A stretch of 64,000 nucleotides of DNA from Vibrio taketomensis (GTDB lineage: Bacteria > Pseudomonadota > Gammaproteobacteria > Enterobacterales > Vibrionaceae), in assembly GCF_009938165.1 (NCBI RefSeq), contig NZ_AP019649.1:682001-746000 (forward strand). The letters run 5' to 3'. Every line of letters begins with the position of its first letter. Position 1 is the stretch's first letter. A program made the position numbers and the translations under genes. The notes beneath the pieces are model-generated. The model made no database searches and was not told where the DNA came from. It saw only the letters and a list, made by a program, of their open reading frames with translations. Positions 44,549 to 64,000 of this stretch are shown here, piece by piece.

Positions 44549-44555
44549 TAAAGTC

Positions 44556-45209: not shown

Positions 45210-45248
45210 AGCGAAAGCCTATATATATAAATTAAATTTTAGAAAATA

Positions 45249-46412
45249 TTAAGCTGCGATTTCTAGAACGCGAATAATATCTTTATGTGCTAATTGAATA
45301 TAACGACCAAGTGTTTCGTTGCCGTTTAAAGCCTGAATTGCCACTTTGTCGAATTCATTGGTTGGAATATTTGATTCAGTCAATGAAGTTGATAGGTTCA
45401 TTGCTTTGAATGCCTGAACAAATCCATTGATGGCGGCTTGCGCTTTCTCTTCTGGGTTACCTTCTTGAACGCCAAATACGTTTTCTGCTAGACGAACTAA
45501 ACGCTCAAGCTTGTTGTTCTCAATTAAGAACTGCATCCAGGCTGGGAAAATAATTGCCATGCCAGCACCGTGAGTGATGTTGTAAAGACCACTGATTTCA
45601 TGCTCTATGCGGTGTGATGCCCAATCAGAACTGCGGCCAGTATCAAACAAGCCATTGTGACAAATTGTGGCTGCCCACATGTATTCCGCCATTAAGTCGT
45701 AGTTTGTGTGGTCTTCCATCAATGCCGGTGAGATGTCGAGTAACATCTTAAGCAAACCTTCCATCATGTAGTCGTTCAATAGTGAACATTCTGTAGTGGT
45801 AAAGTAACGCTCGAGAGTGTGTGACATTGCATCGGCAATACCTGATGCTAGCAATGGTTTTGGCAAGCTATAGGTTAGCTCTGGGTTCAAAATTGCAAAA
45901 CGAGGGAAAAGCTGAGAATTGTCTACGCCTTTCTTAAGTTTAAGTTCATCGTGCGTGATGATGGCACTTTCAGACATCTCTGAACCAGAGCCACAAATAG
46001 TCAGAATGACGCCGACAGGTAGTACTTGGCTTGGTGTTTCGCTACCGGTAAAGAAATCCCACACATCACCTTGATGCGGAACACCCATAGCGATAGTTTT
46101 TGCCGAGTCGATAACACTGCCGCCGCCAATTGCCAGAATGAAATCAACACCGATTTCACGGCACATTTGCACGCCTTCTTTTACCCCAGATAGAAGCGGG
46201 TTAGGCACAACGTTATTTAGGGTGACGTACTCAATGCCATTTGTTTTTAATGAGTGAGTGACAGCATCAAGTAAACCATTGGTTTCAATGCGATTACCAT
46301 CATAATGAATCAACACTTTCTTGCCGAAAGGTTTGATGTAATCGCCCACTTTAAGGTGTTCATCCTCACCGAAATGAACTTCGGTTTTGCATGTGAACTT
46401 AAAATTATCCAT
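45249..46412 (-). CDS. Iron-containing alcohol dehydrogenase (YqhD/BdhA-like)
   Basis: A 387-residue group III alcohol dehydrogenase. The nucleotide-binding motif FILAIGGGSVIDSAKTIAMG is at about residues 91-110. Metal-binding residues lie in GIADAMSHTLERYF and HEISGLYNITHGAGMAIIFP. The family uses NAD(P)H to reduce short aldehydes. Next to the aldolase gene (39 bases apart) it most likely disposes of acetaldehyde or (methylthio)acetaldehyde, regenerating NAD(P)+. The regulator gene ends eight bases before its start. Confidence 0.9.
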   Translation of the reverse strand: MDNFKFTCKTEVHFGEDEHLKVGDYIKPFGKKVLIHYDGNRIETNGLLDAVTHSLKTNGIEYVTLNNVVPNPLLSGVKEGVQMCREIGVDFILAIGGGSVIDSAKTIAMGVPHQGDVWDFFTGSETPSQVLPVGVILTICGSGSEMSESAIITHDELKLKKGVDNSQLFPRFAILNPELTYSLPKPLLASGIADAMSHTLERYFTTTECSLLNDYMMEGLLKMLLDISPALMEDHTNYDLMAEYMWAATICHNGLFDTGRSSDWASHRIEHEISGLYNITHGAGMAIIFPAWMQFLIENNKLERLVRLAENVFGVQEGNPEEKAQAAINGFVQAFKAMNLSTSLTESNIPTNEFDKVAIQALNGNETLGRYIQLAHKDIIRVLEIAA

Positions 46413-46420
46413 ATTACGAC

Positions 46421-47170
46421 CTAAAGGATAGTGATATTAGAAGTAGAGCAGATGCGTTGTTCGTCATCTGTCAGTTTTTTATCGGTTATTAGTATATCAA
46501 CACAGTCAACATCAGATATTTTCATTAAGCTGAATGAGTCAAATTTAGTGTGGTCCACGACCAGAATTACTTGTTTGCTGTTTTTCATCATTAAATGACG
46601 AATCATTGCTTCATCTTCACTATTATCGTAAAGCCCTTTTTCTAGGTTGAAGCTTGGGCAACTAATAAATGCTCTATTTGCAGAAAATTTGCTTAAAAGG
46701 TCGATAGCAATAGAACCAGTGTATGAATCATTATCATCACAATATATACCACCAATCATAATTAACTTTAGGCTACTGCCTTTAACATAGTCATTTACAA
46801 TCGATGAGTTTGAAATAATAGTTACTTTCTTTTCTGATTTTATTAATTCCTGAACAATGCAAAGTGAAGTAGTGCTGCAATCAAAAATACAATGTCACCA
46901 TTTTTAATTAAAGAAACTGATTTTTTGCTAGTTCTAATTTTTCTTCAACTAATAAATTTTACGAACTGTACTTGGCACGCCATTATCACTTACATAACAA
47001 ACGCCACCGTGAATTTTAACGATGTTGGTGCATTCTTCTTGTAGCTTATCGATATCTCTGCGAATGGTTTCTTGCGACACATTAAATTCTTCACTTAGGT
47101 CACTTACTTTGAGTGAGCCTTTTTCTTTCACCATGGCTTCAATAATCGATTTTCTTTGTTGTGCTAGCAT
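46421..47170 (-). pseudogene. DeoR-family transcriptional regulator, three frameshifts
   Basis: The N-terminus (46949-47170) is a DeoR winged helix: LKVSDLSEEFNVSQETIRRD and VKIHGGVCYV. The C-terminus (46421-46759) is a DeoRC sugar-phosphate sensor domain (MIGGIYCDDNDSYTG, VILVVDHTKFD). The middle is broken by three single-base losses, each in a T or A run: near 46947-46950 (after VRKIY), near 46918-46926 (six A where seven are needed) and near 46888-46892. Restoring each gives LVEEKLELAKKSVSLIKNGD, then DCSTTSLCIVQELIKSEKKV without stops, about 251 residues. It is the first gene of the operon and probably represses it, with a sugar phosphate as inducer. Confidence 0.85.
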
Positions 47171-47831
47171 TTTTGTTTTTCCTTATTTTCTGCTGAGTAT
47201 TAGACAATAAAGCTCAAAAATAACTAAGAGAGAAATCACGAAAACCACAAATACACAGATAAAATCACAACAAAAGTCACATAAAACAACAAAAAACAAT
47301 GTGGGTTATGTGGCTTTAGGTGGGAATGGGAGCTCAAAGGATCGATCTTAGCTATCGGTTAATGTAAAAAGATCGTCGGTAATATTGACTACATAACAGA
47401 GCGTTAAGCGTTGATTGCCAAGATTTGTAGAGGAAGTGGTTAATTGTGTTTGGAAATTGGAGAGCTAAAACGTCGGCCTTATCATCACTATGTGGGAAGT
47501 GTAGGGTGATAGGCTTGATAAATGTTAGATTTCACACAATGCCACATACTTACAGCAAGGCGAAGTTATAACGGAAGTGGTTAAGTGGGATTGCTTGAGC
47601 TGCTGTAATGCGATTCAAATTCAGCAAATGAGTTGTTTATCCGTTCTGACATTTTCGCTGGTTTATGAGAGGATGGTGTAGAACCACCATAATCTTCTTA
47701 CCGCGGATGGTAAATTGTTCCCTCATGTGAATATCTCGACAGGAGTTGAGTTTTAACGATATGAGTATATGTGGCTTATTGTGGGATTGAACAAGCGCTA
47801 ACATCAACATCAAACGAAAGGGAGTGACGTG
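47171..47831. other. Divergent intergenic region upstream of the deoR operon
   Basis: About 660 bases. The deoR-proximal 120 bases carry the repeat cluster listed separately. I see no gene in the rest; the 47637-47891 minus-strand frame has no ribosome site and low protein character. Confidence 0.45.
47233..47282 (-). promoter_or_regulatory. Candidate operator repeats upstream of the deoR gene
   Basis: Five A-rich repeats of the form (A/G)(T/C)CAC(A) occur on the plus strand at about 47235, 47244, 47252, 47264 and 47276, inside a very A-rich tract 60-110 bases upstream of the regulator gene. Such tandem motifs are typical of DeoR/GlpR-type operators. The call is inferred. Confidence 0.35.
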
Positions 47832-48323
47832 ATGTTTGAGTATAAACAAGTCAATGTGGTTTTTAAGCAGGAAACGGCAGAAAGTTATCAAGGAATTGAG
47901 CTGCTGGGTTTCAACCTTGGGTCAGACGAGCACCAAGTCCAAACTCAATTTAGTTTTGGTGATGGTTACGCCGAGCAAAGAGCCGAGACGCAATTAGTCA
48001 CTGAGCTGACTTTACCTAATATCATTAAAGTATCATTGCTTCTGCAAAATCAAACACCACAATTTGCGATAGAAATATTGGGCAGCGGTGAAGAGGCTCT
48101 ACTGACGGATGCCTTCTATTGGTTAGACGATAGTTTGATTTTCCAAAATGGTCACAATGATGACTTCACACCCAAATGGACCAATCTGGTTTGTCAGGGC
48201 GGATCGTTTGATGAATTTGCTCAAGCGATGTTGAAAGCTATCAACACCATAAACACTCAAATTGAGCAACAAATGCAACGAGTCGTCGGTGAGCGACCTA
48301 CGCCTAACCGTGCATTTCATTGA
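47832..48323 (+). CDS. Hypothetical protein, 163 aa
   Basis: A soluble acidic protein beginning MFEYKQVNVVFKQETAESYQ. It carries no recognised domain. Features seen: a hydrophobic core segment ELTLPNIIKVSLLLQNQ, and a C-terminal amphipathic helix (AQAMLKAINTINTQIEQQMQ). ATG at 47832 has GGGAG eight bases upstream; the GTG one codon earlier is less likely. It is a single gene between the divergent deoR region and the nhaC copy 3 gene, with a shared terminator after it. Confidence 0.65.
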   Translation: MFEYKQVNVVFKQETAESYQGIELLGFNLGSDEHQVQTQFSFGDGYAEQRAETQLVTELTLPNIIKVSLLLQNQTPQFAIEILGSGEEALLTDAFYWLDDSLIFQNGHNDDFTPKWTNLVCQGGSFDEFAQAMLKAINTINTQIEQQMQRVVGERPTPNRAFH

Positions 48324-48353
48324 TGATAGAAGCAAAGCCGTTTTGCCACGCAT

Positions 48354-48382
48354 TAAAAAAGCTCCTATCGGAGCTTTTTAAT
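48354..48382. terminator. Bidirectional terminator between the hypothetical gene and nhaC-like copy 3
   Basis: AAAAAAGCTCC-TATC-GGAGCTTTTT is a perfect stem with A-run and T-run on both sides. Confidence 0.88.
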
Positions 48383-48388
48383 ATCGTT

Positions 48389-49756
48389 TTAGTATTCAGC
48401 TTGTGAGGTTGGCTGACGAGTTTGATGCTTGATAAATACCGCTACAATCGCCGTGATTGCAAGAGCAAAACAGTAGTATGAGTTTGCTACGATCTCCAAT
48501 GGAGAAAGACTAAATACCGAGCCTAGTAGCAACACTTGCGCGCCGTATGGCAATACACCTTGAACAACGCACGAGAAGATATCCAATAGGCTAGCTGAGC
48601 GGCGAGGAGAGACGTTATTCTCTTCTGCTAGTTGGCGCGCCACGCTACCAGAGACAATGATTGCAACGGTGTTGTTTGCGGTACAGGTATTCACCATAGA
48701 TACAAGGGCTGCGATACCCAATTCACTTGCGCGGCCATTCGCTTGTTTAGAGTGGCTTGAACCAAAGGTGCGAATGATGCCACTGACGAAATTGGTCAGG
48801 AACGCTAAACCACCTTGGCGGCGCATCAGTTCACTCAAACCACCAATTAGCATGGATAGCAGGAAGATCTCTTGCATATTACCAAAGCCAGAATAGATAT
48901 CTTGCCCAAAGTTAGTTAGGCCATAGCCATCAATCGATGACAGACTTACTCCGCCAGCCAGAAGAATGCCGATGGTGAGAACAACAAATACGTTAATGCC
49001 TGACACTGCAAGCACTAAAATCGTTACGTAAGGTAGAACTTTTAGCCATTCAATAGGACCAGTCTCAGGAACTTGAGTTGCAGTGTTATTGAAGGCAAAA
49101 ATTACCAACGCGACAAAGGCTGCTGGAAGCGCAATACGAATATTTTCTTTGAATTTATCTTTCATATCACACCCTTGCGAACGGGTGGCTGCAATAGTGG
49201 TGTCAGAGATAATGGAAAGGTTATCACCAAACATCGCGCCGCTAAGTACTACGCCTGCCGTTAATGGGAGGCTCATACCGGCAGATTGAGCAATACCGAG
49301 TGCTACGGGAGCAACCGCCGCAATGGTACCCATTGATGTGCCCATCGCCGTGGCAATAAAGGCAGAAATCAAAAAGATGCCTGGCAAAATCATGCTAGTA
49401 GGAATCGCCGATAAACCGAGGTTTACCGTGGCATCGACACCACCAGAGGCTTTTGCAACAGCAGCGAAAGCACCAGCAAGCAAGTAGATCAAACACATCG
49501 CGATGATGTCTTGATGACCGACACCACGCATAAAATGTTCAATAGCATGATTGAGCTTATCTTTGCTTAGTAACAGTGCAAGGATCACCGCAGGCAACGC
49601 CGCAATCGGGGCTGGCAGTTGATAAAAAGCGAAATCTACACCCTGTAAAGATAAATAAGTACCCACACCAATGAACAGTGCGAGGAACACAATCAAAGGC
49701 AGCAGTGCAAGCGCCGATGGTGCGATAGTTTTATTAGTATTTTTAGAATTAGACAT
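48389..49756 (-). CDS. NhaC-family Na+/H+ antiporter, copy 3 (near-duplicate of copy 1)
   Basis: A 455-residue polytopic antiporter with the same signatures as the gene at 39422-40789 (ATAMGTSMGTIAAVAPVALG; AMFGDNLSIISDTTIAATRS). The two proteins match at the large majority of positions by eye, differing mainly in the first 15 residues, the FHSAATQ/FNNTATQ loop and the C-terminus. The reading frame is open to 49819, but ATG 49756 (MSNSKNTNKTIAPSALALL) corresponds to the copy 1 start. The upstream flank (ACATTATCAAT and CTAATCGGAC) also resembles copy 1. It lies just outside the island boundary. Confidence 0.9.
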   Translation of the reverse strand: MSNSKNTNKTIAPSALALLPLIVFLALFIGVGTYLSLQGVDFAFYQLPAPIAALPAVILALLLSKDKLNHAIEHFMRGVGHQDIIAMCLIYLLAGAFAAVAKASGGVDATVNLGLSAIPTSMILPGIFLISAFIATAMGTSMGTIAAVAPVALGIAQSAGMSLPLTAGVVLSGAMFGDNLSIISDTTIAATRSQGCDMKDKFKENIRIALPAAFVALVIFAFNNTATQVPETGPIEWLKVLPYVTILVLAVSGINVFVVLTIGILLAGGVSLSSIDGYGLTNFGQDIYSGFGNMQEIFLLSMLIGGLSELMRRQGGLAFLTNFVSGIIRTFGSSHSKQANGRASELGIAALVSMVNTCTANNTVAIIVSGSVARQLAEENNVSPRRSASLLDIFSCVVQGVLPYGAQVLLLGSVFSLSPLEIVANSYYCFALAITAIVAVFIKHQTRQPTSQAEY

Positions 49757-49960: not shown

Positions 49961-49988
49961 AAGGGCCAACTCTTTCGAGTTGGCCCTT
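49961..49988 (-). terminator. Native ssrA terminator
   Basis: A perfect 12-bp stem AAGGGCCAACTC (49961-49972) / GAGTTGGCCCTT (49977-49988) with a TTTC/GAAA loop. Read on the minus strand it ends in TTTTTAT and starts ten bases beyond the CCA end of the tmRNA remnant, which is where the ssrA terminator belongs. Confidence 0.8.
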
Positions 49989-49997
49989 CCAAACGTT

Positions 49998-50018
49998 TGG
50001 TGGAGCTGGCGGAGTTGA
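49998..50018 (-). other. ssrA (tmRNA) 3'-end remnant, attachment site of the island
   Basis: On the minus strand this reads ...TCAACTCCGCCAGCTCCACCA, the 3' end of tmRNA including CCA, with one C fewer than the usual CTCCCGCC. To the right the sequence no longer matches tmRNA, so only the att core is present. The intact ssrA gene is expected beyond the right window edge, next to the integrase. Confidence 0.7.
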
Positions 50019-50058
50019 TAACTAATCTACCAGTGTCCATCTATGTATCGCTAAGCCT

Positions 50059-50090
50059 TTTAAGCCTAGCGTGTTACGGATGTGTTACCA
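50059..50090. repeat. Direct repeat, right copy (island side)
   Basis: TTTAAGCCTAGCGTGTTAC followed by GGATGTGTTACCA, 209 bases from the left copy. The paired GTGTTAC motifs look like integrase arm-binding sites. Confidence 0.65.
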
Positions 50091-50188
50091 CTTTGGTTGT
50101 TTTATAATCAGATGCGAGTCAAATACTTAGCCGATAATTGTCGTTTAGCATCAGCAGGGATGACTAGATCGACTACTCAAAAGTCCAG

Positions 50189-50415
50189 TCATTCTACTTT
50201 CTCATTTTCCATTTGATCCCAGAAATCTGAGTCTAATTCTTTTATTTCCCGTTACTCGATTCATATTCAATGAGTAATGCCTCTTCAGACACGTCCATTG
50301 ATTTAGCTAGCCATGTTTCAGAATTACGTCACTTCTGTGCGCCATGCTCGGCAAAGAATGAAAGAGCAAACGGCATAATTTCGTGGTATTTAGGTAAAGT
50401 TATAACCCATTCCAT
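50189..50415 (-). pseudogene. Small hypothetical gene after hsdR, broken frame
   Basis: ATG at 50413-50415, 16 bases after the hsdR stop, opens MEWVITLPKYHEIMPFALSF then FAEHGAQK and a TGA. The same frame continues as RNSETWLAKSMDVSEEALLI and EYESSNGK; one base further another frame gives EIKELDSDFWDQMENEKVE and a stop at 50189. Together this looks like one small acidic protein of about 75 residues with two disruptions. The family was not recognised. Its place suggests it belongs to the restriction-modification operon. Confidence 0.5.
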
Positions 50416-50430
50416 ATCTAGTAACTCAAA

Positions 50431-53400
50431 CTACCTAGCCATCAACATATCAAATATGACTCTGGCGAACTGTTTCGTTTTACTTGGATCAGATAGAAGC
50501 TGCATCATCTGCTCTTGGTGTGCAGCACTGCTATTTAGAATCGCATCATCAATCGCACGCGGGAAGTCGCCCAGCATGGCTTGTTCGCGGGTGTTATTGG
50601 CAATTTGGCTCATGACCGTTTCGTTCTCAGTGAGCTTGTCACGCACCGTAAAGGCATAGTTGATCATGTCTTTGTCAGTCAGGTTGTCAGTAACAAACAC
50701 CTCGTTGAGCTGCTCAATAATCAAAGACAAAACTCTTCTTTCTTGTCTTTGGCTTTCGCGGTACCAACGTCATTACCGGGCTGAAGTTTGTATTCTGGCG
50801 TATTCTCTTGAAGCTGAATGTCTTGCTGACGGATCTTTGATAAGCGGTAGTGGCTCATCACCACGTTGCCAAGATCAAGCTCGTCTTCTTCGATGACTTT
50901 CTCGCGCAGCATTGGGCGTAGATGGCGCGCGCACAAGCTCAGCTTTTCTAGCTCTTTATCGTCGTAATCGACAATCTGCGACATGAACTCATAGAAGCGA
51001 ACAAAGCTGCCCAAGTCTTTCTTGAAGATCTAAGCGGTCTTTCTCCTGCTTGCACTCTTTAAAGCTGTTTTCTGCATTGGCAATCAACACCGCATCGCCT
51101 GTCTTCTTGGTGCGCTCAAACATGCTCTGGCACGAATATATTCCTCTACCGCAGAGCTGTAACGCTTGCGCCAACGGTCTACCGCAGGCTTACAGATGTT
51201 GCTGATCGCTGCATTGATTTGTTCTTGGTAAAGAAAGCATCAACGAACTGCTCAACCTCTGTCCATAAGAAGATGCCGCTTGCACGCAGCTTTTCTGATA
51301 GGTCAAAGATCTTGTCAGGGTCAGACATCCTCAAGCTCAGCCACTTGGTAAGGCTGGAAAGCGTCAAGAATGTCTTGCGGATCGTTGTAGAAGTCGAGCA
51401 CAAAGGTGCCGCACTCTGCTTTACCCTGATAAGTACGATTCAGGCGAGAGCGTCTGCACACTCAACGCCAGCGAGCTTCTTATCAACATACATGGCGCAG
51501 AGCTTCGGCTGGTCAAAGCCCGTCTGGAACTTGTTGGCGACTAGCATTACCTGATAATCATCAGTGTTGAAGGCTTTGCGCATCTCACGACCTTTAAGAT
51601 CAGGGTTCATGTTGTGCTCAGTGAACTTCTGATCCATAAACGCAGTGCTGTCTGGGTCGGCGGCGTTAAATTCCACTTCACCAGAGAATGCCACCATGGC
51701 GCGAATGCCCGCATAACCATGTTCAGACACGTACTTATCAAACGCCAGTTTATACCGCACTGCCTCTTTACGTGAGCTGGTAACCACCATTGCTTTGGCT
51801 TGACCACCCAATAAGCCCATCACGTTCTTTTGAAGTGCTCGACAATCACTTTTACTTTTGCGAGATGTTATGGTCGTGCAGGCGCACCCAGTTATTAAGC
51901 TTCACCTGGCTTTGCCTGAATCACCTCTTTGTCATCAGCTTCGAGCTTTGCTTGAGCTGATAGATCACCTTGTAGTTGGTGTAGTTCTTCAGCACATCAA
52001 GAATGAAACCCTCTTCAATCGCCTGACGCATAGAGTAGATATGGTAAGCCACTGGCAAGTTGCGTTTAGACGCAGGTTGCTCGGGATCGGGTCTGCGACC
52101 AAACAGCTCCAGAGTTTTAGGCTTTGGCGTTGCGGTAAAGGCGTAATAGCTCAGGTTGGCACTGCCTCGACGCGCAGCAATGGTGGCATCGAGAATATCT
52201 TCAGATGAAAGCTCGGTGTCATCATCGGTTTCATCCGTCATCAACACTTCTTTAGCTGACGAGCGGTTGAACCTGTTTGTGATGAGTGCGCTTCGTCGGC
52301 AATGATGGCGTAACGACGCTCTTTCAGTGACGTTGAGTTCTCAATCGCCTTTAACACATGCGGGAACGTTTGAATGGTCACGATGATGATTGGCTGAGAC
52401 GTTTCCAGTGCCGTTGCCAGCTTCTCTGATTTAGAGCCATCGCCTTCTTTGCGGTTGATGCGACCCACCACGCCATCGGCATGTTCAAACTGATAGATGG
52501 TGTCTTGTAACTGGTCATCCAGTACGGTGCGGTCAGTCACCACAATCACCGAATCAAACTTGTTGCCGTTAGCATCATGCAGGGTCGAGAGTTGGTGTGC
52601 TGTCCATGCAATCGAGTTAGATTTACCCGAACCCGCACTGTGTTGGATCAGGTATTTATTGCCAGTGCCCTCAATCGCGGCGTTAACCAGTTGTTACTAC
52701 ATCCCACTGGTGGTAACGCGGGAAGATCAGAGTTTCTTTCTTGGTTTACGCCCTTCCCAGTCTTCCTTTTCTTCAATTTGAAGATGGATAAAGCGCCCGA
52801 TGATATTGAGCAGGTTGTCTGGCGTTAATACTTCATTCCACAGGTAATCAGTCGCGTAGCGGTTTTCATCTTCAGGGATGTCATTGCCCTTGCCACCATC
52901 ATGCGTACCTTTGTTAAATGGCAAGAAAAACGTTTGGTCACCCGCTAGCTTGGTTGCCATGTGAACTTCATACTGGCTTACAGCGAAATGCACTAAGGCA
53001 CCGCGTTTAAAGCTCAAAAGCGGTTCTGGCTTTTAGTGGCTGGGTCTTTCGGTAAACGGGTCAGTTTGTACTGCGCAATGGCGTTTTCGACCGCTTGTTT
53101 GAACTCAGATTTCAGCTCAAGGGTAGAAACTGGCAAACCATTAACGAATAGCACAAGTCAATGCGCCAGCGCTTTGCGCTGTTTTATTCAAAACAGGTTG
53201 TTCGCTCAAGGCTGTCGCTTTTTACCCGTTGCTTCAAATTCAGCTTGCGTGGCCTGCTCTTTTGAAATGTGGGACTGTAAACCAGCTCAGGCACAATACG
53301 GAAAATGTTGTGCTGGTAACGTGCTAAAGTTTCAGGGTTGAGGTTATGCTCTGGCTTAAATTGACACAATTCAAAACGGGCATTGCGGATTTTCAAACCA

Positions 53401-53693
53401 TGACGCAACAAAGTACCAAAGGTGCGTGACGCACGATCAGTGGCGTTCTCATCGGCTTTTAAGCTGTAACCAAGGCATCAAGAAAGTGGCGTTCTGAGTC
53501 AGTCGGGAAGACTTTGCAGAACTTCTCCACTCTTTCGGCTGCGTCTGTTTGATAAAGGTCAGCACATCCGCCTCGAAAGAGCCGATTCGCGATTGTAGCC
53601 CTCACCAGTGCCTTGCACCCAGCCATTAGCCACCATCTGGCTGATGATGTCGTCCTGAAATACCCTTTCGACAGTTGAATCTCTAGACATCAT
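50431..53693 (-). pseudogene. hsdR: Type I restriction enzyme R subunit HsdR, many frameshifts
   Basis: Fragments in all three frames, read in order, give one HsdR of about 1,085 residues: M-M-S-R-D-S-T-V-E-R-V-F-Q-D-D at the start, the nuclease ExK motif in VNGLPVSTLELKSEF, the SF2 motor with QHSAGSGKSNSIAW, VVTDRTVLDDQL, IADEAHSSQTG (DEAH) and FTATPKPKTLELFG, then NKFQTGFDQPKLCAMYVDK, and a helical C-terminus ending FARVIFDMLMAR. HsdR translocates and cuts unmethylated DNA with HsdM and HsdS. At least a dozen single-base losses break the frame (for example TTGTGC for TTGGTGC near 53155); conserved sequence resumes immediately after each. I suspect sequencing errors. The start overlaps the DUF2971 gene by 11 bases. 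Confidence 0.85.
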
Positions 53694-54313
53694 GGCTCTC
53701 CTGTCTCACGTTCAGATTGTAAACAGGAGTAACGTGACAGTAGACCATATCTTCCGTCCAGTCCTTTAGTTTAATTGATGGGTCTATTGCTTGGACAATT
53801 GCCTTTAACAAAGCTTTCTGTGCGTCATCAGCCTTTTCACCAAAAATAATCTCCTTCACTTGTACTGGAATAAAATTACCCGTTTGAGCGAAGACCTTAT
53901 CTCCTCCTCGTAGTGCCAATAACTGGCTTTGCAAGAAAGCACATTTTAGCCCTTTCGAGCGTCGTAGGTACAGAAGCGATTAGATTTGATTGAGATTCGT
54001 AATTTACTTCTCTTAAATCTGCCGATTCGTCAAGCTCAACCCCAATTGCTATGCCTCGGTTACCATCGGCATAATGCGCCACATCAAAGGTTATTGCTGT
54101 ACTTTGCTAATGAACAAAACCTTAGAGAACTTTTATGGCTTTCTAGTGCAGCTAAAGCCTCAGAAGGAATATCACTTCCATAAGTATAAAACCCTCCATA
54201 GGATCATTCATAGACTCAAAGGTAGCAGCGTATAAGCGTTTGTTTACGATGATGTCCAATATGAATTCGAAGCGATCCAGCGTTCTAAACTTATACAGCG
54301 TCACAGCATTCAT
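53683..54313 (-). pseudogene. DUF2971-like protein between hsdS and hsdR, frameshifted
   Basis: Starting at ATG 54311-54313 the repaired product reads MNAVTLYKFRTLDRFEFILD, then KRLYAATFESMNDPMEGF, CSLAKYSNN..LMWAHYADGNRGIAIGVELDE, KASYWHYEEEIRVFAQTGNF and ends VYNLNVRQESHDV at 53683, about 210 residues. The LYKFR start, the ND-P-xE motif, the W-x-H-YA motif followed by G-I-A-I-G, and YWxYEEEIR are the pattern of DUF2971. The function is unknown; DUF2971 genes are sometimes found in defence loci. At least three frame breaks are present. The start region is in the same frame as the hsdS end, and the stop overlaps hsdR. Confidence 0.7.
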
Positions 54314-55687
54314 CCTCGCTCGTTGATTCATTCTCTGCCAATTACGGACGTCGATCTTGCCAGTGACGACTGCCGAAATGAGCGAAGTTCGCCTTTCTTT
54401 CAAAGAACGATTGATTTTTCAGCTTGCTCGATACAACGTAAATGTTTATCGCTAAGCTCATCAAGCATATCAGCGATTGAAATTTGCTCATCTAAAGGCG
54501 GTACGGGGATACGTTGCTCCCCTAACATTGTCCGGCTAATTCTTAAGCGGAAACCACCACCTACTCTACATAAATCTTGAATCCATCTTAGCCAAGGAGT
54601 GGAGTTAGTCAGGTAGACATAAATCTTGCATCAAAGTCTCGATGTTTTAGAATTGCGTTATCCACAGAAGTTATGACTTTGACTCCTAAATCTGGAGCCA
54701 AGCAAGAGCGGCCCACTGGACCATCTAAACGGCAAATAAGGACATCATTAGGCTTCACTTCGGTGCAATTCAATTTTTAAAAGATGATTCAGAAATGTAT
54801 CTAAAACCTTTTTCTTTAAATTCACCTATGCCAACATTTCCAGTTTGAAGTAACCGTACACCAGAATCGGTTATGTAAGGACTTTCAATCCAATCACCAT
54901 CGGTGAATGTTTTATATCCATCCGCCGCACTGAATTTCAACTCCATAATTTTCCAGTGCAGAGGCACGGCATCAAACCACTCCACACCAGAATCTTTCAT
55001 TGGTGCTTGCGGGTTCAATCCTTTGGTCACCGCATGGCTGATAACCGCTTGACGCTTTTCTTTAAGCAGCTTAATCAGTTGCTGCTGCTTTTCGATCAAG
55101 GTGTCGATTTTGGCGGTTTCGTGTTCGAGAAAAGAAAGGATTGCGCTTTGCTCTTCAATATCCGGCAAAGGTAAGAACAAGCTTTTAACAATGCTTGAAT
55201 TCAAACCATGCATGATGGAGCCTTTACCTTGCTGCCTAATTTGAAAAGCCACTTGGAGATTCATCGATTAACAATTTGAAGAAATCAGACTTTACCATGT
55301 CTCTCTCTCAATCGAAGTAGATGAGAGTCAATAATCCCCAACGCTGCCGTTTCTGGTACGATCTCGCATTTACCACTCGTTCCCATCATGGTAATTAGTA
55401 TGTCACCGGGAGTCGCTTTGTAGACCTCCATTTCCTTGAACTTAGAGTCACTTATTCTTCTCTTCCAAGAGAAAGTTTTTTGATTACATTTTCTTGTCCA
55501 AAAACAAAATGCCATCTTCTACCATGTCTTCAAGTTTTAATGCGCTTCCAAATGGCCCAATTTTAATTCCCTCTGCACCATCTTTTAAAAGGTATCGAAC
55601 TTGTTTTGTGTTCCAGTGCGACGGAAGCGTGTCTAAGCTGCTGATGCCTGAAGCCTGATATTCCGGATATGCCTGATACTTACCCAT
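54314..55687 (-). pseudogene. hsdS: Type I specificity subunit HsdS, frameshifted
   Basis: Two target-recognition domains separated by the conserved helix are visible. TRD1 begins MGKYQAYPEYQASGISSLDT and LPSHWNTKQVRYLLKDG. The central conserved region is LPDIEEQSAILSFLEHETAK and IEKQQQLIKLLKEKRQAVIS, followed by VEWFDAVPLHWKIMELKF (TRD2) and the distal repeat PVPPLDEQISIADMLDELSD with KSIVLLKERRTSLISAVVTG. Breaks occur near 55500, 55450, 55280, 54780, 54650 and 54410. The ATG overlaps the hsdM stop (TAATG). The true end is uncertain because the frame runs into the DUF2971 gene; 54314 is an estimate. Confidence 0.8.
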
Positions 55688-57982
55688 TATGAATGCACCT
55701 CTTGCAGTAGCTTCATAATGTCTGCACTCACGACATCCAAATCGGCATCATGGCTTCCAGCACACGTGGTGGCTGGTAAACATAGAAATGGCGGTTGAAT
55801 GGGATTTCGTAACCCACCACACCAATTTCATTGTCTTTGTCATCGCGCTTGTCTGCGTTAATCCACGCATCGACAACGTGTGGCTGCACTTCGCGCTTGA
55901 AGTAGCTTTCGATTAGGTTGATGTGGTCACTGTTGGATCTAGCGGCACGTTCTCGTTATCACGCAGGTCGCCATCCTGTTGGAACTCAACCACTTTTCCT
56001 TTGTAGTCGAAAGCCCCGTACAACGGCTGCGCATCTTCTTTCAGCACTTTCTTGATCACAGGCTCAGCGTCTTGGTTCTTCCAAGTAATCGCATCGGTAA
56101 ACTGTTTCTTCTGCTTGGCGTCGAACTTGATGCCAGTAGCCTTGAATGCGCCTTTGAGGGCCAGCTCAAACTGGTTGAAGTCGTCAGATTGCTGCGCCTT
56201 TCCGCCAAGCTTGTCGCCCACGGCAACTTGCAGAGCTTTTGCTGCATCCATTAGGGCTTTCTGGCTAAGCCAAAGTTTGCTGTCCAATACGTCTTTGATT
56301 TGCTTTTCTTTCAGCTCAGGGAAGTCGGCTTTGATCAGCGCACGCACTTCGGTTTCTACGTCAATCAGTGAGCCATAAGTCTCTTCATTCCACTCGGAGC
56401 CGAACTGCTCAAAGACAGCCTGCATTACCGCGTTAAATGGTTTAGGTGCAAAGCGCAGTGATTCCACCGCTGCATCAGTGATTTGCGCAGAAAGACGCAG
56501 TGGGCGCTCGATGGTCAGGCGGCGGTAGCCAAACTCATGCGTATCAAAAATCTTAGCGGTTAGTGGTTTGCCACTTTCTGTCAGGGTATCCACCTCAACA
56601 AACTCACCAAAGTTCTTGGTGATGGCGCGGATTTCATCATCGGTCAGGAAGTGACGCTTAGAACCCAGCGACTTACGCATTTTGCTGCTTAAGTTGGCAC
56701 CATTGATAAGCTGCACTTTGCCTTTACGCTCTGGTCTTTCTTGTTGGTCAGCACCCAAACGTAGGTCGCAATGCCTGTGTTGTAGAACATATCGGTTGGT
56801 AGCGCGACAATGGCTTCAAGTAGGTCAGCCTCTAAGATGTAAGCGACGAATTTCACTTTCACCACTACCCGCACCGCCTGTAAACAGCGGCGAACCGTTA
56901 AGGATAATGCCAATACGACCACCATCAGTAACAAGGTTATCGACGTTCTTCTTATCACGCATCTTGCTGATAAGGTGCATCAAGAACAGAAGCGAGCCAT
57001 CAGAAACACGCGGCAAGCCTGCGCCAAAGCGTCCATCAAAGCCTTTTGTTCGTGCTCGTCTTTGATTTCACCCTCAATCTTTTTCCAATCGACACCGAAC
57101 GGCGGGTTAGACAGCATGTAGTCAAACTTGTCGGCTGGCAGTTGGTCATTCGACAGGTGTTGCCTAGTTTGATGCGGCTAACATCTTGCCCTTTGATCAG
57201 CATATCTGCCTTACAGATAGCGTAAGACTCAGGGTTTAGCTCCTGACCAAATGCACGCATCACTGCTTTCGGGTTAAGTTCGTGCACGTATTCCATGCCT
57301 GACGAGAGGAAGCCACCTGTACCCGCTGTTGGGTCATAGATGGTGCGGATGATGCCGTCTTTGGTTGGGCTTCATCGTCTTCCATAAATACCAATGAGGT
57401 AGTCAGGCGCACGATGTCACGCGGGTAAAGTGTTCACCCGCCGTTTCATTCGAGCTTTCCGCAAAGCGGCGGATCAATTCTTCAAACACCAAACCCATCT
57501 CGTAGTTAGAGATATTACTTGGGCTAAGGTCGGTGGTGGCAAACTTCTTCACCACTTTGTAAAGCAGGTTGGCATCTTCCAGCAAACCAACAAATTCATC
57601 GAACTTGAAGTGCTCGAAAATCTCACGCGCATCTTTGGAGAATGACTGCACGTATTCTCAAGGTTCGCCTTGATGTTGCTTTGCCCCATCTTGCCAAGGT
57701 TCATTGGCGAGGTGTTGAAGAACGACAAACCATCAGGCTGCGCTGGTGATTGTGTTGCACGTAGTAAGAACTTTTCCTGCGCTTCTTCTGGCAGGTTCAT
57801 CGCCTTAATGCGTTCATGCTCGGCAACCACGGCATCTTTGCTTGGCTCAAGCACACTCAAGGCGACGAAGCAGGGTAAACGGCAGGATCACGACCGTACT
57901 GAGATTGTTTGAAGTCACCGCGAAGCAGGTCAGCCACTGACCAGATAAAGGCAGCGGTTTGAGAGAAGTTGTTGTTAGTCAT
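55687..57982 (-). pseudogene. hsdM: Type I DNA methyltransferase HsdM, frameshifted
   Basis: An N6-adenine methyltransferase subunit. Reading across frames gives [96 protein letters not shown] (AdoMet motif I), [17 protein letters not shown] (NPPF catalytic motif) and [13 protein letters not shown] near the end, about 765 residues. About eleven small indels break it, for example CCC for CCCC before GCGTGAC near 57420, GT losses near 57890 and 57862, and one extra T near 56850. It is the first gene of the operon. Confidence 0.88.
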
Positions 57983-58306
57983 GATACGTACAGAGACAAT
58001 AAAATTGCTCCGATTATATATGAATGCTGATTATCTTTGTGATGTATTAATGCGGGTAATTGGAAAATGAGATAAATTTTACGCCGATTCATGGATATGG
58101 GGAGGGTGTTGGCTGATCTCGCCCCCTATGAACCCATAAAGCTGGAGCCTGTCTTTGATCTCCATTCACTAACTGCCACTAATTCAAACTAAAATTCTGA
58201 TTATCATGTGAAATTTATTGAGAAGCTGTCGCCAAAAACAGGCTCTTTATCAAAATAGTTCAGTATGCCTGCATAGTCGTCCTTGATTCAAATAGGAGAG
58301 ATATCT
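57983..58306. other. Divergent promoter region between hsdM and a hypothetical gene
   Basis: 324 bases carrying both promoters. AGGAGAG at 58294-58300 is the ribosome site of the plus-strand gene. No palindromic C-protein operator or repeat was found. Confidence 0.45.
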
Positions 58307-58922
58307 ATGAAAGCTGAATACTTGAAAGACATTGAATTAACTTTTGAGAGGATGGTTTAGTGGTAGAGCTAGATATATGTGATGCCCTACAAGGATGACG
58401 GTTGATGTTAAAGTGAGTGAAAGGCTAACGGATGGTCGGCTTGATCATAAAGCATGGGTTATGACGGAGTTTGATGATCTTTATAACAAGATAAGGTTTG
58501 TTGACCTTTACAGCTACCAGAAGCAAGTAGGGTACAGTTCACTTGCTGTCTCAATTTTAGTCGAGCTCTATAAAAGCATTATGGAACCAACATTACTTAG
58601 TGCAACCAAATGTTATGGCAACCTTAGCTCAATCGGCGATGAGAACCCAGAGATCCAGCATTTAAAACGAGTTAAGTTTTGGTCAGACTTGGGTTTCTCG
58701 GTTAGCCAAGGAGGGCACGAGGATAATCCTAGGATGGTGTGTTTGTTGCAAAACTTAAGTATTAGTCCTAACGCAAAGGATGTATCTCAAGAGTTCTACA
58801 AATTTCGAACTACGTATGACAATTATTGGAACGTAGTAACGGTGATGTTTGAGGCACTTTGTGGTTTGTTTAGTGCCTCGTACCGTGGATTATGCAGTTT
58901 TATGCAATTCTTATTCAATTAA
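58307..58922 (+). pseudogene. Hypothetical protein divergent from hsdM, two frameshifts
   Basis: ATG 58307 with AGGAGAG six bases upstream opens MKAEYLKDIELTFERMV, then a stop. The next frame continues LVVELDICDALQG, and a third, from 58395, gives MTVDVKVSERLTDGRLDHKA to the stop at 58922. Joined, this is about 205 residues. No domain was recognised; the C-terminal part contains a hydrophobic stretch VVTVMFEALCGLFSASYRGL. Its position as a divergent partner of the hsd operon in the island suggests cargo, function unknown. Confidence 0.55.
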
Positions 58923-58963
58923 TACTGCCGAAATCGCTTCAAAGAGGTCATATTAACGAGTTT

Positions 58964-59474
58964 TTAGGCTCTAGTGCACATTACGTACATTATGTTAAAT
59001 GTTGTTTTGGGAATTTGGCGGCAGGGAGATGCGTTCTCTGCGTCACTTGCGATGTCAGCCATAATGAATGATAAAGGGTTTTCTTGGTTCCCTGATAGCT
59101 CCAGTACCTGCTTAGCATTCCAGTTCTCACGGCTACGGCATCGTAACCAGAACTCCATCGCTCGTACGTCAGGTGGCAATTCTTCTGTATTGAACAATCT
59201 CACCCGAACTCAAAACCTTCTCCTTCACTGTAACGCCAGTAGCGCGTTTGAATAGCTGATAAGCAACTTCTGCATCGGCTTGTAACTTGCCACGTTTACG
59301 AGCCTCAGCGAACTTGGGATATAAGCTGACCCAATGAAATATCGTATCACGATGAACGTCAAAGAAATGCGCTAAGTCTTGGTCTCTAGCTCCCAATAAG
59401 CAGAGCTTGTAGGCTTGCTTTGCGTATTCGATTTGGTACTTGTTGTTATTACAGTTACCTAAAGGTCCAGGCAT
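58964..59474 (-). pseudogene. Phage terminase small subunit-like HTH protein, one frameshift
   Basis: The N-terminal part (59169-59474) reads YAKQAYKLCLLGARDQDLAH then FFDVHRDTIFHWVSLYPKF, a helix-turn-helix as in TerS proteins, and ADAEVAYQLFKRATGVTVKE. The second frame (58964-59203) continues NTEELPPDVRAMEFWLRCRS and RENWNAKQVLELSG, the usual continuation in these small terminases (LPPD...FWLKNRRPxxW). One base is missing or extra near 59200. ATG 59472-59474 follows AGGAAG. TerS recognises DNA for packaging into capsids, so this gene suggests redirected packaging of a satellite. About 165 residues when joined. Confidence 0.75.
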
Positions 59475-59711
59475 ACACTTCCTTTATTAGATGGTTCTAA
59501 TATTAATTTTAATGTAATGTAGGAGTTAATTCTTTAATCAGTCAAAATACACATACTCACTAAGCAACATCTCATTGTTACAATATCCCCCTATAGGGGT
59601 AATGTAACTGTAATGAGATATATTTGCTTAATGCTCTGGTTGTGCCAAAGCGTTACAGTTACAAGGTGATGCATGTAACTATAATTGTAATGGTAATACG
59701 AACAGTAGAAT
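59475..59711. other. Non-coding region with iterons between terS-like gene and helicase
   Basis: About 240 AT-rich bases containing the palindrome and TGTAAY repeats listed separately; no gene. Confidence 0.55.
59569..59691. repeat. Palindrome and TGTAAY iteron cluster, candidate origin or operator
   Basis: A large palindrome is centred at about 59594: core CCCCTATAGGGG (59588-59599), with outer arms ATCTCATTGTTACA (59569-59582) and TGTAACTGTAATGAGAT (59603-59619). To its right the exact inverted copy TTACAGTTACA (59653-59663) of TGTAACTGTAA, then TGTAACT (59674-59680) and TGTAAT (59686-59691). In total about seven TGTAAY units in 120 bases. Confidence 0.65.
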
Positions 59712-61090
59712 TTAGCTTTGATTAACCAATGAAATCTGCTTTAGTTCTTTATCTACTGAAATCTGCCCGTTTTTTCTAGTTGTTGGATTGCGTGTTAATT
59801 GAGTTCGTGAGTTACCATCGCTAACGTCTTTAACTTGCTGTTCTTTAAATGATTTATTTAAATTCTCTCGACTACAGCTTCCCCGGAAGACGTTAAGATA
59901 GATAGTTTGACGGTGGTGTTTTTGAGGATTGGGAGATTTTCGATTCCTTTTTCATACCTTCTTTTGTGTTGGACTGGTCGTGCGACATAGTGAAGTACTG
60001 CCTTGTGGTCTGACAGGCTTACACGGGATAGACAAATTACTTGCGGAATCATAGGTTCTGAATCTTTTGTTTGGTACAGGTAGTAGGTAGCTTGAAGCGT
60101 TATGTTTACGTTCAATCCGAAATTCAGTATCTAATGCAGCTTTGAGTGATGAGTTGCCACGAGCCCCTTGTTGCATCCTTACCTGTATGGTGAACAAGCA
60201 AGATAGCTGCTTGGGTGTGCTGTTTCAGGCGGTCACATGCGGCGATAAATGCTCCCATATCTTTGGCACTATTCTCGTCACCATTACCAAAGCATCGTGC
60301 TAGAGTATCAATAACTATCATTTTGATATCGCCATGCTTTCGACAAGTAAAATCAATCACTTTAAGTAATTGTTCGAAGTCATTACTTTGCGTGAGTGCT
60401 AGCGGTTGCCCAATTCGGAATAGGTTGTGTGTTTCTTGGCCATTGATTAGCTCCCAAGCTTTGATCCGTTTGCTTAGTCCAACATCCCCTTCTGCAGCAA
60501 TGTATATTACGTTTCCCTGAGTCACACCGCTTGTTCCCCATGGAGTGCCAGTGACTACACACGCAGCTAAATCCGTAGCATGAAAAGATTTGAAAGAGCC
60601 GGAAGGCCCATAAACCATGTTCAATGAATTAGCTTGAAATTGATTTTCAACAATCCATTGCACTTCTTCATCCCATCCTTGAGAGCCCGATTTAACAACG
60701 AAAGAGTCAAGTTGTTCGCGTTTTGGTTCAAATAAGCCAACCAAAGAACGATTATATTCTGTAACAGTCATTCCGGTTCCATGAACCGCAAGTGTATTAG
60801 CAAGACTAAATACGCTCGACTGAAAGATACTGATTCCGATTATTAGCAACTTCGAATTTGCACTGGCCTGAGGTAAGGATGGGTTCCCCGTTGCAATCTA
60901 GGTGGTACAGCATATTGTCGTAGATGCGCACAGATGGTTTTAATTCCTCTACATCAGGCAGGCACCAATCAGAGTCATTGACACGATAAAAACCTAGGTA
61001 AGTTAGAAGTTTGTCCCAATCGAAAAACTTATTGAAATGATCAAGAGGGTCAATCGTTTTTTGCGCTCGGAGGGGCTAGTGCCATTGTTT
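59712..61090 (-). pseudogene. RepA-like AAA ATPase (replicative helicase), frameshifted
   Basis: A RecA/RepA-fold hexameric helicase. Visible: NMVYGPSGSFKSFHATDLA (a Walker A variant GPSGSFKS), GNVIYIAAEGDVGLSKRIKA, Walker B IKMIVIDTLARCFGNGDENS, and ILLVHHTGKDATRGARGNSS, all typical of AAA_25/RepA helicases from plasmids and satellites. Before this, frames give DPLDHFNKFFDWDKLLTYLG and LPDVEELKPSVRIYDNMLYH. Frame breaks lie near 60850, 60170 and 60080. One frame ends VERI at 59858; another continues to a stop at 59712, so the end is uncertain. It may form one primase-helicase gene with the upstream Cys-rich part. Confidence 0.75.
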
Positions 61091-61112
61091 TGAATAAGTG
61101 ATTCGATAACCA

Positions 61113-61763
61113 TCAAAGCAGGAAAAGAAAAGCCAAGTTCTCACTGATAGTGTGGTGTAATCGGCCATTTCCTTCAGTTGGGCATGGTGATAAACAATGC
61201 GCACTCCATTTGTTTTGAATCGCTAACTCATCGCAAAGCCAGTCGGTTAATTTACGCCAATGTGTGTATGAGATGCAGTTATCCAGTGGGATGAGTAATA
61301 CCCATTCTTCAGCATCAGGCTTTAGGTACAGTGCAAATTGGCCGATGTATGGAATACTAAAGAGTTTCGAAACAAATTGATAATAATCGCCATGAGGCAT
61401 TGAGAATTCAATATTGAGAGTGTTGTATAGGCACTTATGCGGTGTTTCCACCCCATCAAGTTCTTGAAGCATACGGCACGATACACGGTACATCTTTGTA
61501 GTCTTGCTTACTAGAAGCCCAAAAGGGCCGCTTGAGCATATCATATAGTAGTCCGATAGGCCCATTAAAGGAGTAAGCTCAGTCAGCATGCACCCTTCAC
61601 TTGAATCACACACCAGTTTGTGTTCACAGAGATTGCATTTTGTTCATTAACATCAACGCTGTGATCGTAACAGTTTTCACATGGGCAATAACGGTTAGAA
61701 AGAACGTTGATATATCCTGATTCATAAGATTTACCTTGCTGTAGCCTAGTGAATGGGTCTTTT
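61113..61763 (-). pseudogene. Cys-rich N-terminal (primase-like?) part of the replication gene, frameshifted
   Basis: The repaired start reads M-K-K-D-P-F-T-R-L-Q-Q-G-K, then SNRYCPCENCYDHSVDVNEQ and LCEHKLVCDSSEGCMLTELT, six cysteines that could bind zinc. Then comes an intact 166-codon frame (61113-61613) ending with WSAHCLSPCPTEGNGRLHHT. The layout (zinc motif, then a domain, then a RepA-type ATPase) resembles primase-helicase proteins of satellites, but I do not recognise the middle domain, so a primase role is inference only. Downstream another frame leads without a clear stop towards the ATPase. Confidence 0.5.
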
Positions 61764-61845
61764 CATTTTAATTTCAGTAATGACAAAACCATTGGCATCT
61801 AGAGTTATGTGATTTGAATTAAACTTCATTTTACTCGATATGGTG

Positions 61846-61878
61846 AACAGCCTCCTTAAGTGTCGAGGCTGTTTTAAG
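61846..61878. terminator. Possible terminator after alpA
   Basis: A perfect stem AACAGCCTC (61846-61854) / GAGGCTGTT (61865-61873); T-runs on either strand are short, so confidence is limited. Confidence 0.45.
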
Positions 61879-61889
61879 TGGTGATGTAT

Positions 61890-62166
61890 CTAGGCTGCTA
61901 GTAAATTTGATAGGTTGCTGTCTAGTTGGCGTTTACGCTCATCAGTTAGACGTGTTACTAATTTTGCAATTTTGTCGTCTGAGTAACCGTTGAATCGGGC
62001 AAGCATGATGCAATCTACTTCAGCTTTAACCCAGCCTACAGAGCGAGTACCGAGAGATACTTGAGAGGGAACAGGCCTTTAGCCATTTGTTTATAAATAA
62101 AGCACGGGAGACACCATATGTCTCAAGAATACTAGGTAAGCGCACAATGCGTTGTTCGACAATCAT
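61890..62166 (-). pseudogene. alpA: AlpA-family transcriptional regulator, frameshifted
   Basis: ATG 62164-62166 follows AGGAGAA. The start reads MIVEQRIVRLPSILETYGVS; after small frame changes near 62080-62100 and 62045 the product continues LYKQMAKGLFPSQVSLGTRS, VGWVKAEVDCIMLARFNGYS and DDKIAKLVTRLTDERKRQLD, about 92 residues in all. This is the MerR-like AlpA/excisionase family found beside P4-type integrases, where it controls integrase and excision or satellite induction. Confidence 0.85.
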
Positions 62167-62359
62167 GTTTTCTCCTGACGTCTATAGAAACGGTGTGCTA
62201 TATTATTATGGGAAGTATCTTCAAATCGGACAGCAACTCCGTAGATGGTGTCTTTTATTGACAGTATTACTTCTTTCATTGCAAGGTCGAAAGACTCGCT
62301 AATTAACTTAAGTATTTTTTTGCGAGATCAGTGCTGTCAATGAGTTTAATTAGGTGTTT

Positions 62360-62891
62360 TTACTCTTGAGTTGCCAATATGTGATGCGGAAAATTGTTCG
62401 AGCATGGTTGAAAGCTGTGAGTACATTTTTGAGTGTCTTTGCTGTATACATCACTTACAAGCAGCACAAAATCATGCATGAAGTTGTTGAATTCTTTGCG
62501 ATATCGTTGTATTTGACGATTTGGGTACTTGTTAATGTTTAACTCAAGCAGATGGCTAATTGCCTTGTTTGCTGTTTTTCGGTCTGATGCATAATGGTCA
62601 ATAAGTGCAACTAGAAAGCCGTTTGAAAGTAAGGTTTTTGATCTTTCTTGTACCCTGATGTAGTTAAAATAACCAGACCCCATGACATTGATATGCTTAT
62701 CGAATGTTTCAATATCAATTGATTTAATGCCTTGATTTAAAAGAATTTCTTGAATGTCATCGAATTCTTTTGAGAACGATTCGAGGGTTAGTTTTACCAG
62801 AACTATTATTGCCTTTATTACTGTAACGGTGGTGTGTAAAACCTGCTAAGGTTATTGATTCAAAATTATTTATTTTTAACATATCTAACAT
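62360..62891 (-). pseudogene. Hypothetical island protein, one frameshift
   Basis: ATG 62889-62891 opens MLDMLKINNFESITLAGFTH; after SSGK near 62795 the frame shifts by one A in an A run and continues LTLESFSKEFDDIQEILLNQ, HINVMGSGYFNYIRVQERSK and ends NNFPHHILATQE at 62360. The joined product has about 177 residues. No family was recognised; it is soluble, basic and helix-rich (HLLELNINKYPNRQIQRYRK). It lies between alpA and int. Confidence 0.55.
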
Positions 62892-62996
62892 TTTGTTTGT
62901 CTGATTGTTTAATAGTAATAAACAAAATGTATGGAAGACGCTTCCATACATTGTTTCATTTCTAGTTATTAGTGAGACAGCGAGATAGACTTTGAT

Positions 62997-64000
62997 CTAT
63001 ATGCTTACCCACCAACACATCATTTCAGTGCGTCTCTCGATGTATTTTGCTCTGTTATATGCGCGTCGAACTGAATTCTTATCGACATGCGCTAGTGCAG
63101 CTTCAATGATGTCTGGGTGCCATCCTCTTCGTTCAATGTAGTACTGGCGAGAGCTCTTAGTCCATGAGCGACGAGCTTTCCTTCATATCCCATACGCTTT
63201 AAAGCCATATTGGCTGTTTGTGGGTTTACAGGTTCATTGCGTTTTCGGTCGGCAGGAAAATATATGGAGACCCATCACTACACTTTTCGCTTGTTCAGTA
63301 TCCGCAAAGCTTGCGGAGTCAATGGAACGATGTGTTCTAAACCTTTTTCATGCGATTGGTGGAACAATCCAAAGCATCTCTCCCAGTTAATTTCATTCCA
63401 CTTAGCACCAGCAGCCTCAGATGGACGAACCATAGTATGAAGTTGCCACTCTATGAGCAGTCTTGTTATACGCCTGATATTGGCGTTCATAAGGTCTACC
63501 ATTAGTTGACCAAGCTGTTCTGGCTTGAGTGTGGGCATGTGAGTTGCTTTGGTGAACGAAATGCATGTCGAACACCTGCTAAAAGGTTGAATTCGATAAG
63601 CCCAACATTTACAGCAAATGTCATTACTTCATTTAATCGTTGGCAGACTCGCTTAACAGTTTCCAAACTTCCTTTTCTGCTAGTGGTCTTAGCGAGTTGA
63701 TAACTATCATTGGCGTTATTTGGTCAATTGGTGTGTTACCAATCTTAGGTAATACATGGAGTTCTAGAGAACGCAAAATATCGATTCCATGCTCATTACT
63801 AACATTGTGTTTTTAATTTCAAACCATTGAGCAATGACGTTTTCCAATAAAAGAGATTGCTTATTGGCTTCTTGATTGATGTGGTCTAATGGGTCGATCC
63901 CTTCGCAAGTAGCGATAGGTATTCATCGCGTTTGTTTCTAGCATCTTTAAGAGCAACGATAGGGTATCGGCCAATCGATAGGTTTGTTCTTTTATGGGTT
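62997..64000 (-). CDS. int: P4-type tyrosine integrase (N-terminus beyond the window; frameshifted)
   Basis: The gene enters from the right edge. Its visible N-terminal part reads NLSIGRYPIVALKDARNKRD and EYLSLLAKGIDPLDHINQEA (the DUF4102-type domain), followed by a core-binding part (LPKIGNTPIDQITPMIVINS). The catalytic domain has the first Arg in LHTMVRPSEAAGAKWNEI, the HxLR box in KLVAHGLRALASTTL, the second His in AALAHVDKNSVRRAYNR and the tyrosine nucleophile in RRAYNRAKYIERR. It ends at TAG 62997. Several single-base breaks occur (near 63140, 63300, 63540, 63800, 63910). Such enzymes recombine at tRNA or tmRNA 3' ends, which fits the ssrA remnant at 50.0 kb. Confidence 0.88.

Follow-up and report, generated by a model that had tools for sequence, protein, structure and literature searches.

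The right-hand part of a 64,000-nucleotide stretch of Vibrio taketomensis DNA (NZ_AP019649.1, positions 682,001 to 746,000; hereafter the window) is occupied by an island of about 14.36 kb that is probably an integrated phage satellite of the type of the Gram-negative phage-inducible chromosomal islands (PICIs), with a type I restriction-modification (R-M) operon as defence cargo, its split genes being likely an error of assembly. The genome comprises two contigs, 4.3 Mb in all, of which the window is C1:682001-746000. Below, L numbers denote locus stretches and G numbers genomes; L009 spans the island and its right flank, L009:17351 lying 351 bp past the end of the window.

The island lies against ssrA, the tmRNA gene. 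An intact ssrA starts 353 bp past the window on the minus strand (C1:746353-746720, equivalent to L009:17353-17720) and is followed by smpB (L009:17787-18272, labelled by eye). An exact 17-bp direct repeat, TTTGGTGGAGCTGGCGG, is found at 49996-50012 of the window and again at L009:17351-17367, 14,355 bp away as assembled; AGTTGA continues both copies, the left one short of one G. The initial annotation had held that a lack of ssrA or of a matching attachment (att) site to the right would speak against a satellite, and all three features, ssrA, repeat and smpB, are there. It had also put the 3' end of ssrA at the left boundary. A copy is indeed present, but it begins at 49996 rather than 49961, with a hairpin occupying 49963-49986. 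CCAAACG follows that hairpin, and the same CCAAACG and a similar hairpin adjoin the native ssrA of L071 and L076. Because of the repeats and this likeness of the flank to native ssrA, the island is evidently inserted in the 3' end of the gene, having rebuilt ssrA and displaced the old downstream sequence to the far end. The flank on the island side is common to the island and to L023, a related locus. As to ssrA itself, ARAGORN reports an unusual tmRNA tag, ANDDFIGSERLAA, at L071:3606-3991 (G032); the tag is ANDENYALAA in the genome studied here and in five other Vibrionaceae tmRNAs scanned.

Leftwards from ssrA, the genes are an integrase, AlpA, a region with a Cys-rich part and an AAA_25 Rep, terS, a 175-amino-acid unknown, hsdM, hsdS and hsdR (Table 1). 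Most of these had been named in the initial annotation and are borne out by profile or tblastn matches. A piece of the integrase matches PF00589 (3.3e-7) and phrog_1 (5.6e-12), the two pieces of the small terminase subunit (TerS) match phrog_309 (5.5e-22 and 1.5e-7), and the L023 AlpA that served as tblastn reference itself matches PF05930. The ATPase with a Cys-rich upstream part was also rightly recognized; its matches in PHROGs to phage helicase-primases are confined to the ATPase part, no primase domain was seen in the broken upstream part, and no relative came to light when genome contigs were scanned with the Rep piece. The proposed iteron cluster fared less well: it comes down to three 11-nt copies of TGTAACTRTAA within 59480-59720, the sole copies in the window and a weak candidate. 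Structural genes had been reported absent, and their presence further to the right had been named as the mark of a plain prophage remnant. No capsid, tail, portal or large terminase subunit (TerL) gene was found in the island pieces scanned (TerL and portal by tblastn, capsid and tail solely through a comparison of 10 pieces with PHROGs), a procedure that small broken genes could escape.

The R-M operon has hsdR, hsdM and hsdS together, in frames that are broken as assembled, and its identification in the initial annotation is upheld by tblastn and PADLOC; both give strong matches, while single-piece Pfam matches to HsdS, N6_Mtase and HsdM_N fall under the Pfam cut-offs. The nearest operon found, with whole genes, is on a conjugative plasmid of Vibrio campbellii, NZ_CP117990.1. 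Since hsdS has only 52% DNA identity to the plasmid copy, its recognition part likely differs. The family was matched, at any level, in at least 34 of 227 genomes of the genus, its own included (two candidates scored per genome). In G217, the relative of the operon adjoins an AAA_25 Rep and a putative relaxase; in G032 and G188, relatives lie 2-3 kb from ssrA with no matching integrase. A HipA-like gene (labelled by eye) stands between the operon relative and ssrA in L071 and L076.

The initial annotation overlooked the fragmentation of almost every island gene into short frames. Frames of at least 150 codons cover 0.36 of the island, against 0.88 of the other 49,994 bases of the window. Relative to the plasmid copy, the deletions in hsdR and hsdM together number 22 of one base, 5 of two bases and two of 4 bases, apart from in-frame ones; the insertions are one each of 1, 14 and 40 bases. 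(These counts shift slightly with the aligner, giving 32 or 34 frameshift-length indels, and do not include hsdS, which is too divergent.) Intact copies compared with each other, over four pairs with at most three matches taken from each, show 0-2 one-base deletions and 0-2 one-base insertions per match. Runs of at least 4 bases make up 207 of the 5,530 reference bases and contain seven of the 22 one-base deletions. Host genes from smpB to recN are balanced, with 0-7 deletions versus 0-8 insertions per match, albeit at a lower identity of 65-78%. The host controls against L023 were imperfect and were not relied on: smpB, whose L023 frame is cut short, has two 1-base indels, bamE is poorly aligned (1 stop and one 16-base indel), and ratA has no frameshift.

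A relative-rate test gives a different picture of the same genes. For hsdR, the window branch has as private changes 63 synonymous, 11 nonsynonymous and no stop, and for hsdM 27 synonymous, 1 nonsynonymous and no stop (90/12/0 in all). These values fall within the range of the intact copies and reflect normal purifying selection. The three intact branches have 65/3, 84/8 and 100/12 synonymous/nonsynonymous changes in hsdR and 34/5, 60/15 and 75/17 in hsdM. In this alignment, hsdM has 2 aligned stops in the outgroup copy O and two frameshift-length indels in each of the copies B, C and O; these are taken as alignment effects. Since a gene so rich in indels should also have gained neutral substitutions and nonsense codons, the split genes most likely reflect uncorrected single-base deletions in the assembly rather than decay, and the element may therefore well be whole in the living strain.

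The same signature appears elsewhere in the genome. A second island with terS, whole in this case, lies beside tRNA-Ser at L024:5200-14900 (C1:1053199-1062899), together with what is, judging from repeat matches, transposon-like and attC-like sequence, and it shows the signature in part: 15 one-base deletions and 1 insertion relative to L096. Against a 418-codon frame of that locus, 47 changes are synonymous, 25 nonsynonymous and none a stop. (A second L096 frame, which aligns without homology and gives 19 stops, was ignored.) Two unrelated accessory stretches, within C1:1280001-1290000 (L147) and C1:150001-160000 (L138), show it too, with almost no insertions. C1:1,280,968-1,288,239 (L147) has 43 one-base deletions to 1 insertion over 7.4 kb, and its relatives, compared mutually, have no one-base deletion and either 3 or 7 insertions; C1:152,789-156,851 (L138) has 31 to 1 over 4.1 kb and 17 to 1 against another relative. 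The density of one-base deletions is about 5-7.5 per kb in these two stretches and 1.6 per kb in a short match of 610 bp. Sixty 20-kb stretches sampled across the genome (1.2 Mb) have a mean frame coverage of 0.78, with low 5-kb bins in L138, L147, L161, L168 and L169 and single low bins in L035, L160 and L172; L138 and L147 are the ones tested for the signature, and some of the others could be due to genes that are naturally short. The low coverage of L030, with tRNA-Ile/Ala pairs and inferred rRNA operons, was not counted as broken. Because this sample revealed further broken stretches, we dropped the idea that only the two satellites are affected, a pattern that would have been a hint of their loss from culture. 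In our reading, correction reached most of the assembly and missed some stretches of strain-specific DNA. Among the low-coverage stretches, the end of L161, L168 and L169 correspond to C2:264-270, 700-720 and 750-770 kb and may represent either errors or naturally short genes.

The chief alternative is that the island is truly a decayed remnant of a satellite, eroding by small deletions after loss of function. The first look at the frames suggested as much, as do the low frame coverage, the many frameshift-length indels in hsdR and hsdM and a substitution stop that one alignment places in hsdR; a bias towards deletions is also seen in the erosion of bacterial pseudogenes. Neutral decay, however, is expected to bring many more substitutions than indels, and the window branch has neither a stop nor an excess of nonsynonymous changes. 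Natural decay was set aside after the relative-rate test and the recurrence of the signature in the two accessory stretches and the second island; it now seems unlikely. From the assembly alone, the unit can be called neither intact nor decayed, with an intact unit favoured.

Several observations weigh against the interpretation of the island as a satellite broken only by assembly. No core gene is whole as deposited, the longest apparently whole gene being the 175-amino-acid unknown. The 14- and 40-base insertions in hsdR and the two 4-base deletions are a poorer fit to simple read error, another alignment has 1 substitution stop in hsdR, and both a deletion bias and an enrichment in homopolymers can arise by natural slippage. 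Other matches of the second island have deletions to insertions of 8:2, 6:0, 2:0, 12:4, 1:1 and 10:8, some running into the host flank. Foreign DNA is not broken throughout, since positions 40000-48400 of the window have almost no match in 20 relatives and yet have whole frames. A search of the whole genome for two TerL families, PF03354 and PF03237, gave no match (of 14 known genomes used as control, the profiles matched 3 and 6), so no resident helper is visible. Finally, a Rep of the same family and an R-M operon occur together in L067, in an island that resembles a mobilizable element.

This last point bears on a second alternative, that the island is an integrative mobilizable element at ssrA. 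The Rep is closest to those of L067 and L075, both in islands with a putative relaxase (labelled by eye); L067, beside a dusC-like gene (labelled by eye), has the same R-M family, and L075 is at ssrA. The island studied here differs from both in having TerS, of which they show no match, and in lacking a match to the putative relaxase of L067 (tblastn with a 234-amino-acid query that itself has no Pfam match). Its integrase, AlpA and TerS match instead L023 and L078. L023, at ssrA, has int (in two frames), alpA, a primase and terS. L078, from Grimontia celer CECT 9029 and also at ssrA, has the same four genes, int, primase and terS being whole, with terS the sole head-and-packaging PHROG among 10 open frames scanned and with a 26-bp repeat at 2475-2500 and 17449-17474, about 15 kb apart. 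With both TerS and AlpA present, a mobilizable element is quite improbable.

The TerS relatives set the island apart from phages as well. With the whole TerS of the second island (L024) as query, TerS was found in 13 of 329 Vibrionaceae genomes, its own included, and 13 loci from 12 of these genomes were examined (G272 was left out, and the coordinates of L078 are those of the match in G253); a scan of genome contigs for TerS returned three loci. References for five phage TerL and three portal proteins have no match in any of the 13 loci, a weak negative for L128, L129 and L130, which are short or start at an edge. Six of the eight phage or prophage loci not used as references match TerL, in some over a short part; L092 and L094 do not, and L088 repeats L079. 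TerL immediately follows the TerS match in all five annotated phage records; a sixth is unannotated. In a TerS tree, 12 satellite rows separate from 12 phage rows at 100/100, and 0 of 500 shuffles gave a value as low, with the reservation that similarity to a single query was the basis for collecting both sets and that S_L130, on a long branch, is of unsure placement. The tree excludes the broken window copy, L088 and L091. All 382 phage records matched by TerS are less than 60% identical to it. Phage homologues include the TerS of CUS-3, whose group packages by the headful. An ordinary prophage remnant, to which the phage-type int and terS might point, is thus the least credible alternative, given att sites on both sides about 14.4 kb apart, no match to TerL or portal, and TerS relatives that fall outside the phage side of the tree.

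Within the 13 TerS loci, seven (L009, L023, L078, L124, L125, L126 and L127) also match references for integrase, AlpA, primase or G217-type Rep, L023 and L078 being themselves sources of references. L025 and L130 match only references derived from L025, and L024, L097, L128 and L129 match TerS alone. HsdR and HsdM are matched only in the window island. Beside terS in L097:3675-11768 (G158) are a large ATPase gene and GajA/GajB, a Gabija pair.

Among known systems, the closest are the Gram-negative PICIs, examples of which carry terS and which have int, alpA, a replication module, sometimes terS, and a specific att site (PMC6092414). The island likewise has a specific att site with a tyrosine integrase, alpA and terS; it differs in its AAA_25 Rep and type I R-M cargo. 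The words ssrA, tmRNA and restriction do not occur in the text of that article. PICMI satellites of Vibrionaceae, according to PMC10803314, lie beside fis and are about 6-7 kb long. They share with the island the host family, an int-alpA-replication core and defence cargo. The relatives of the island at L023 and L078 also have a primase, which in L023 contains DUF5906, a domain that the PICMI model uses. The island is instead at ssrA, is 14 kb long and has TerS and an AAA_25 Rep in place of a DUF3987/DUF5906 primase; the Toprim_3/DUF5906 primase of L023, the query in this search, has no tblastn match in L009. The text of that article contains "ters" a single time and never "terminase".

P4-like satellites also have defence hotspots, with R-M types II and III reported among their cargo (PMC9122126). 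The initial annotation had left open whether the satellite is a PICI or P4-like. The Gram-negative PICI type stands, and the P4-like option gained no support because the nearest relatives found of the AAA_25 piece lie in mobilizable-element-like islands. The island differs from P4-like satellites in having TerS, and no P4 gene was identified, although P4 genes were not searched individually; psu, delta and sid are absent from the PHROG matches of 10 pieces, with no search dedicated to them or to a P2-type cos. In Staphylococcus aureus, type I R-M genes that lie near PICIs are described as being transferred by lateral transduction mediated by these islands (PMC12829572). No publication was found that joins phage satellite, restriction-modification, PICI and ssrA, which says little, as subscription literature was mostly outside the search.

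Table 1. Features of the island and its left edge (window positions unless a locus is given)
Feature	Position	Strand	Evidence or remark
Hairpin (perfect) just outside left att; displaced native ssrA terminator-like sequence	49963..49986		similar hairpin and flank at L071, L076
Left attachment site, copy of ssrA 3' end	49996..50018	-	17 bp exact, ~23-24 bp with one missing base; partner from L009:17351
hsdR, restriction subunit, broken frames	50443..53684	-	87.6-89.6% DNA identity to intact NZ_CP117990.1 copy
Unassigned accessory frames between hsdS and hsdR	53683..54403	-	two frames scanned: no Pfam match; one with sub-threshold PHROG match only
hsdS, specificity subunit, broken frames	54335..55687	-	52% DNA identity to plasmid copy
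hsdM, methyltransferase, broken frames	55684..57982	-	tblastn, PADLOC; Pfam matches below cut-off
67-nt stretch near terS, candidate packaging or RNA element	58060..58126	.	86% like L024:6438-6507
175-aa open frame, whole	58395..58922	+	no Pfam, PHROG or PADLOC match
terS, small terminase subunit, in two frames	59012..59474	-	phrog_309; 87% and 79% to whole second-island TerS
Three TGTAACTRTAA motifs, short cluster, possible binding site (weak)	59577..59696	.	motif search
Rep-like AAA_25 ATPase piece	60124..60849	-	AAA_25 at 1e-41; 46% to Rep of G217
Cys-rich region upstream of ATPase, broken frames	61113..61750	-	read by eye
alpA, broken frames	61911..62181	-	tblastn, 66-83% to AlpA of L023
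Unassigned 107-aa frame	62360..62683	-	sub-threshold Pfam/PHROG matches only
Tyrosine integrase, broken frames	63009..64000, on to ~L009:17142 (142 bp past window)	-	profile and tblastn matches

The 67-nt stretch near terS is present in both satellites of this genome; no other genome is among the matches listed (two candidates scored per genome), and its exact 23-nt core has no match in viral contigs. To the left of the island, a DeoR-like regulator (labelled by eye) at 46421-47170 is apparently split into two short frames.

If the island is a satellite, its life cycle might run as follows. The tyrosine integrase would insert it into the 3' end of ssrA, which is thereby restored. A helper phage would induce excision dependent on AlpA, Rep would replicate the excised circle, and the satellite's TerS would direct the large terminase and the heads of the helper towards satellite DNA, in headful fashion. 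The HsdRMS cargo, for its part, may restrict competing DNA that is unmodified.

A broader interpretation is more tentative, perhaps somewhat short of an even chance: the Vibrionaceae may harbor a lineage of TerS satellites apart from the phage TerS compared, with an int-alpA-terS core, swapped replication modules and interchangeable defence cargo, two of which, possibly functional, coexist in this genome. The core would be kept in the best-preserved members, and replication modules (the Toprim_3/DUF5906 primase, the AAA_25 Rep, another Rep in L025) would be exchanged with mobilizable elements at the same sites. The type I R-M system of the window island and the Gabija pair of L097 would be instances of the defence cargo.

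The island as interpreted here would add a TerS-type satellite group to the Vibrionaceae, for which the Grimontia celer member, with its core frames whole, offers a clear test case, and it would provide an instance of a satellite that bears a restriction operon. It may also serve as a warning that mobile elements that seem decayed in public genomes can be artefacts of unevenly corrected assemblies.

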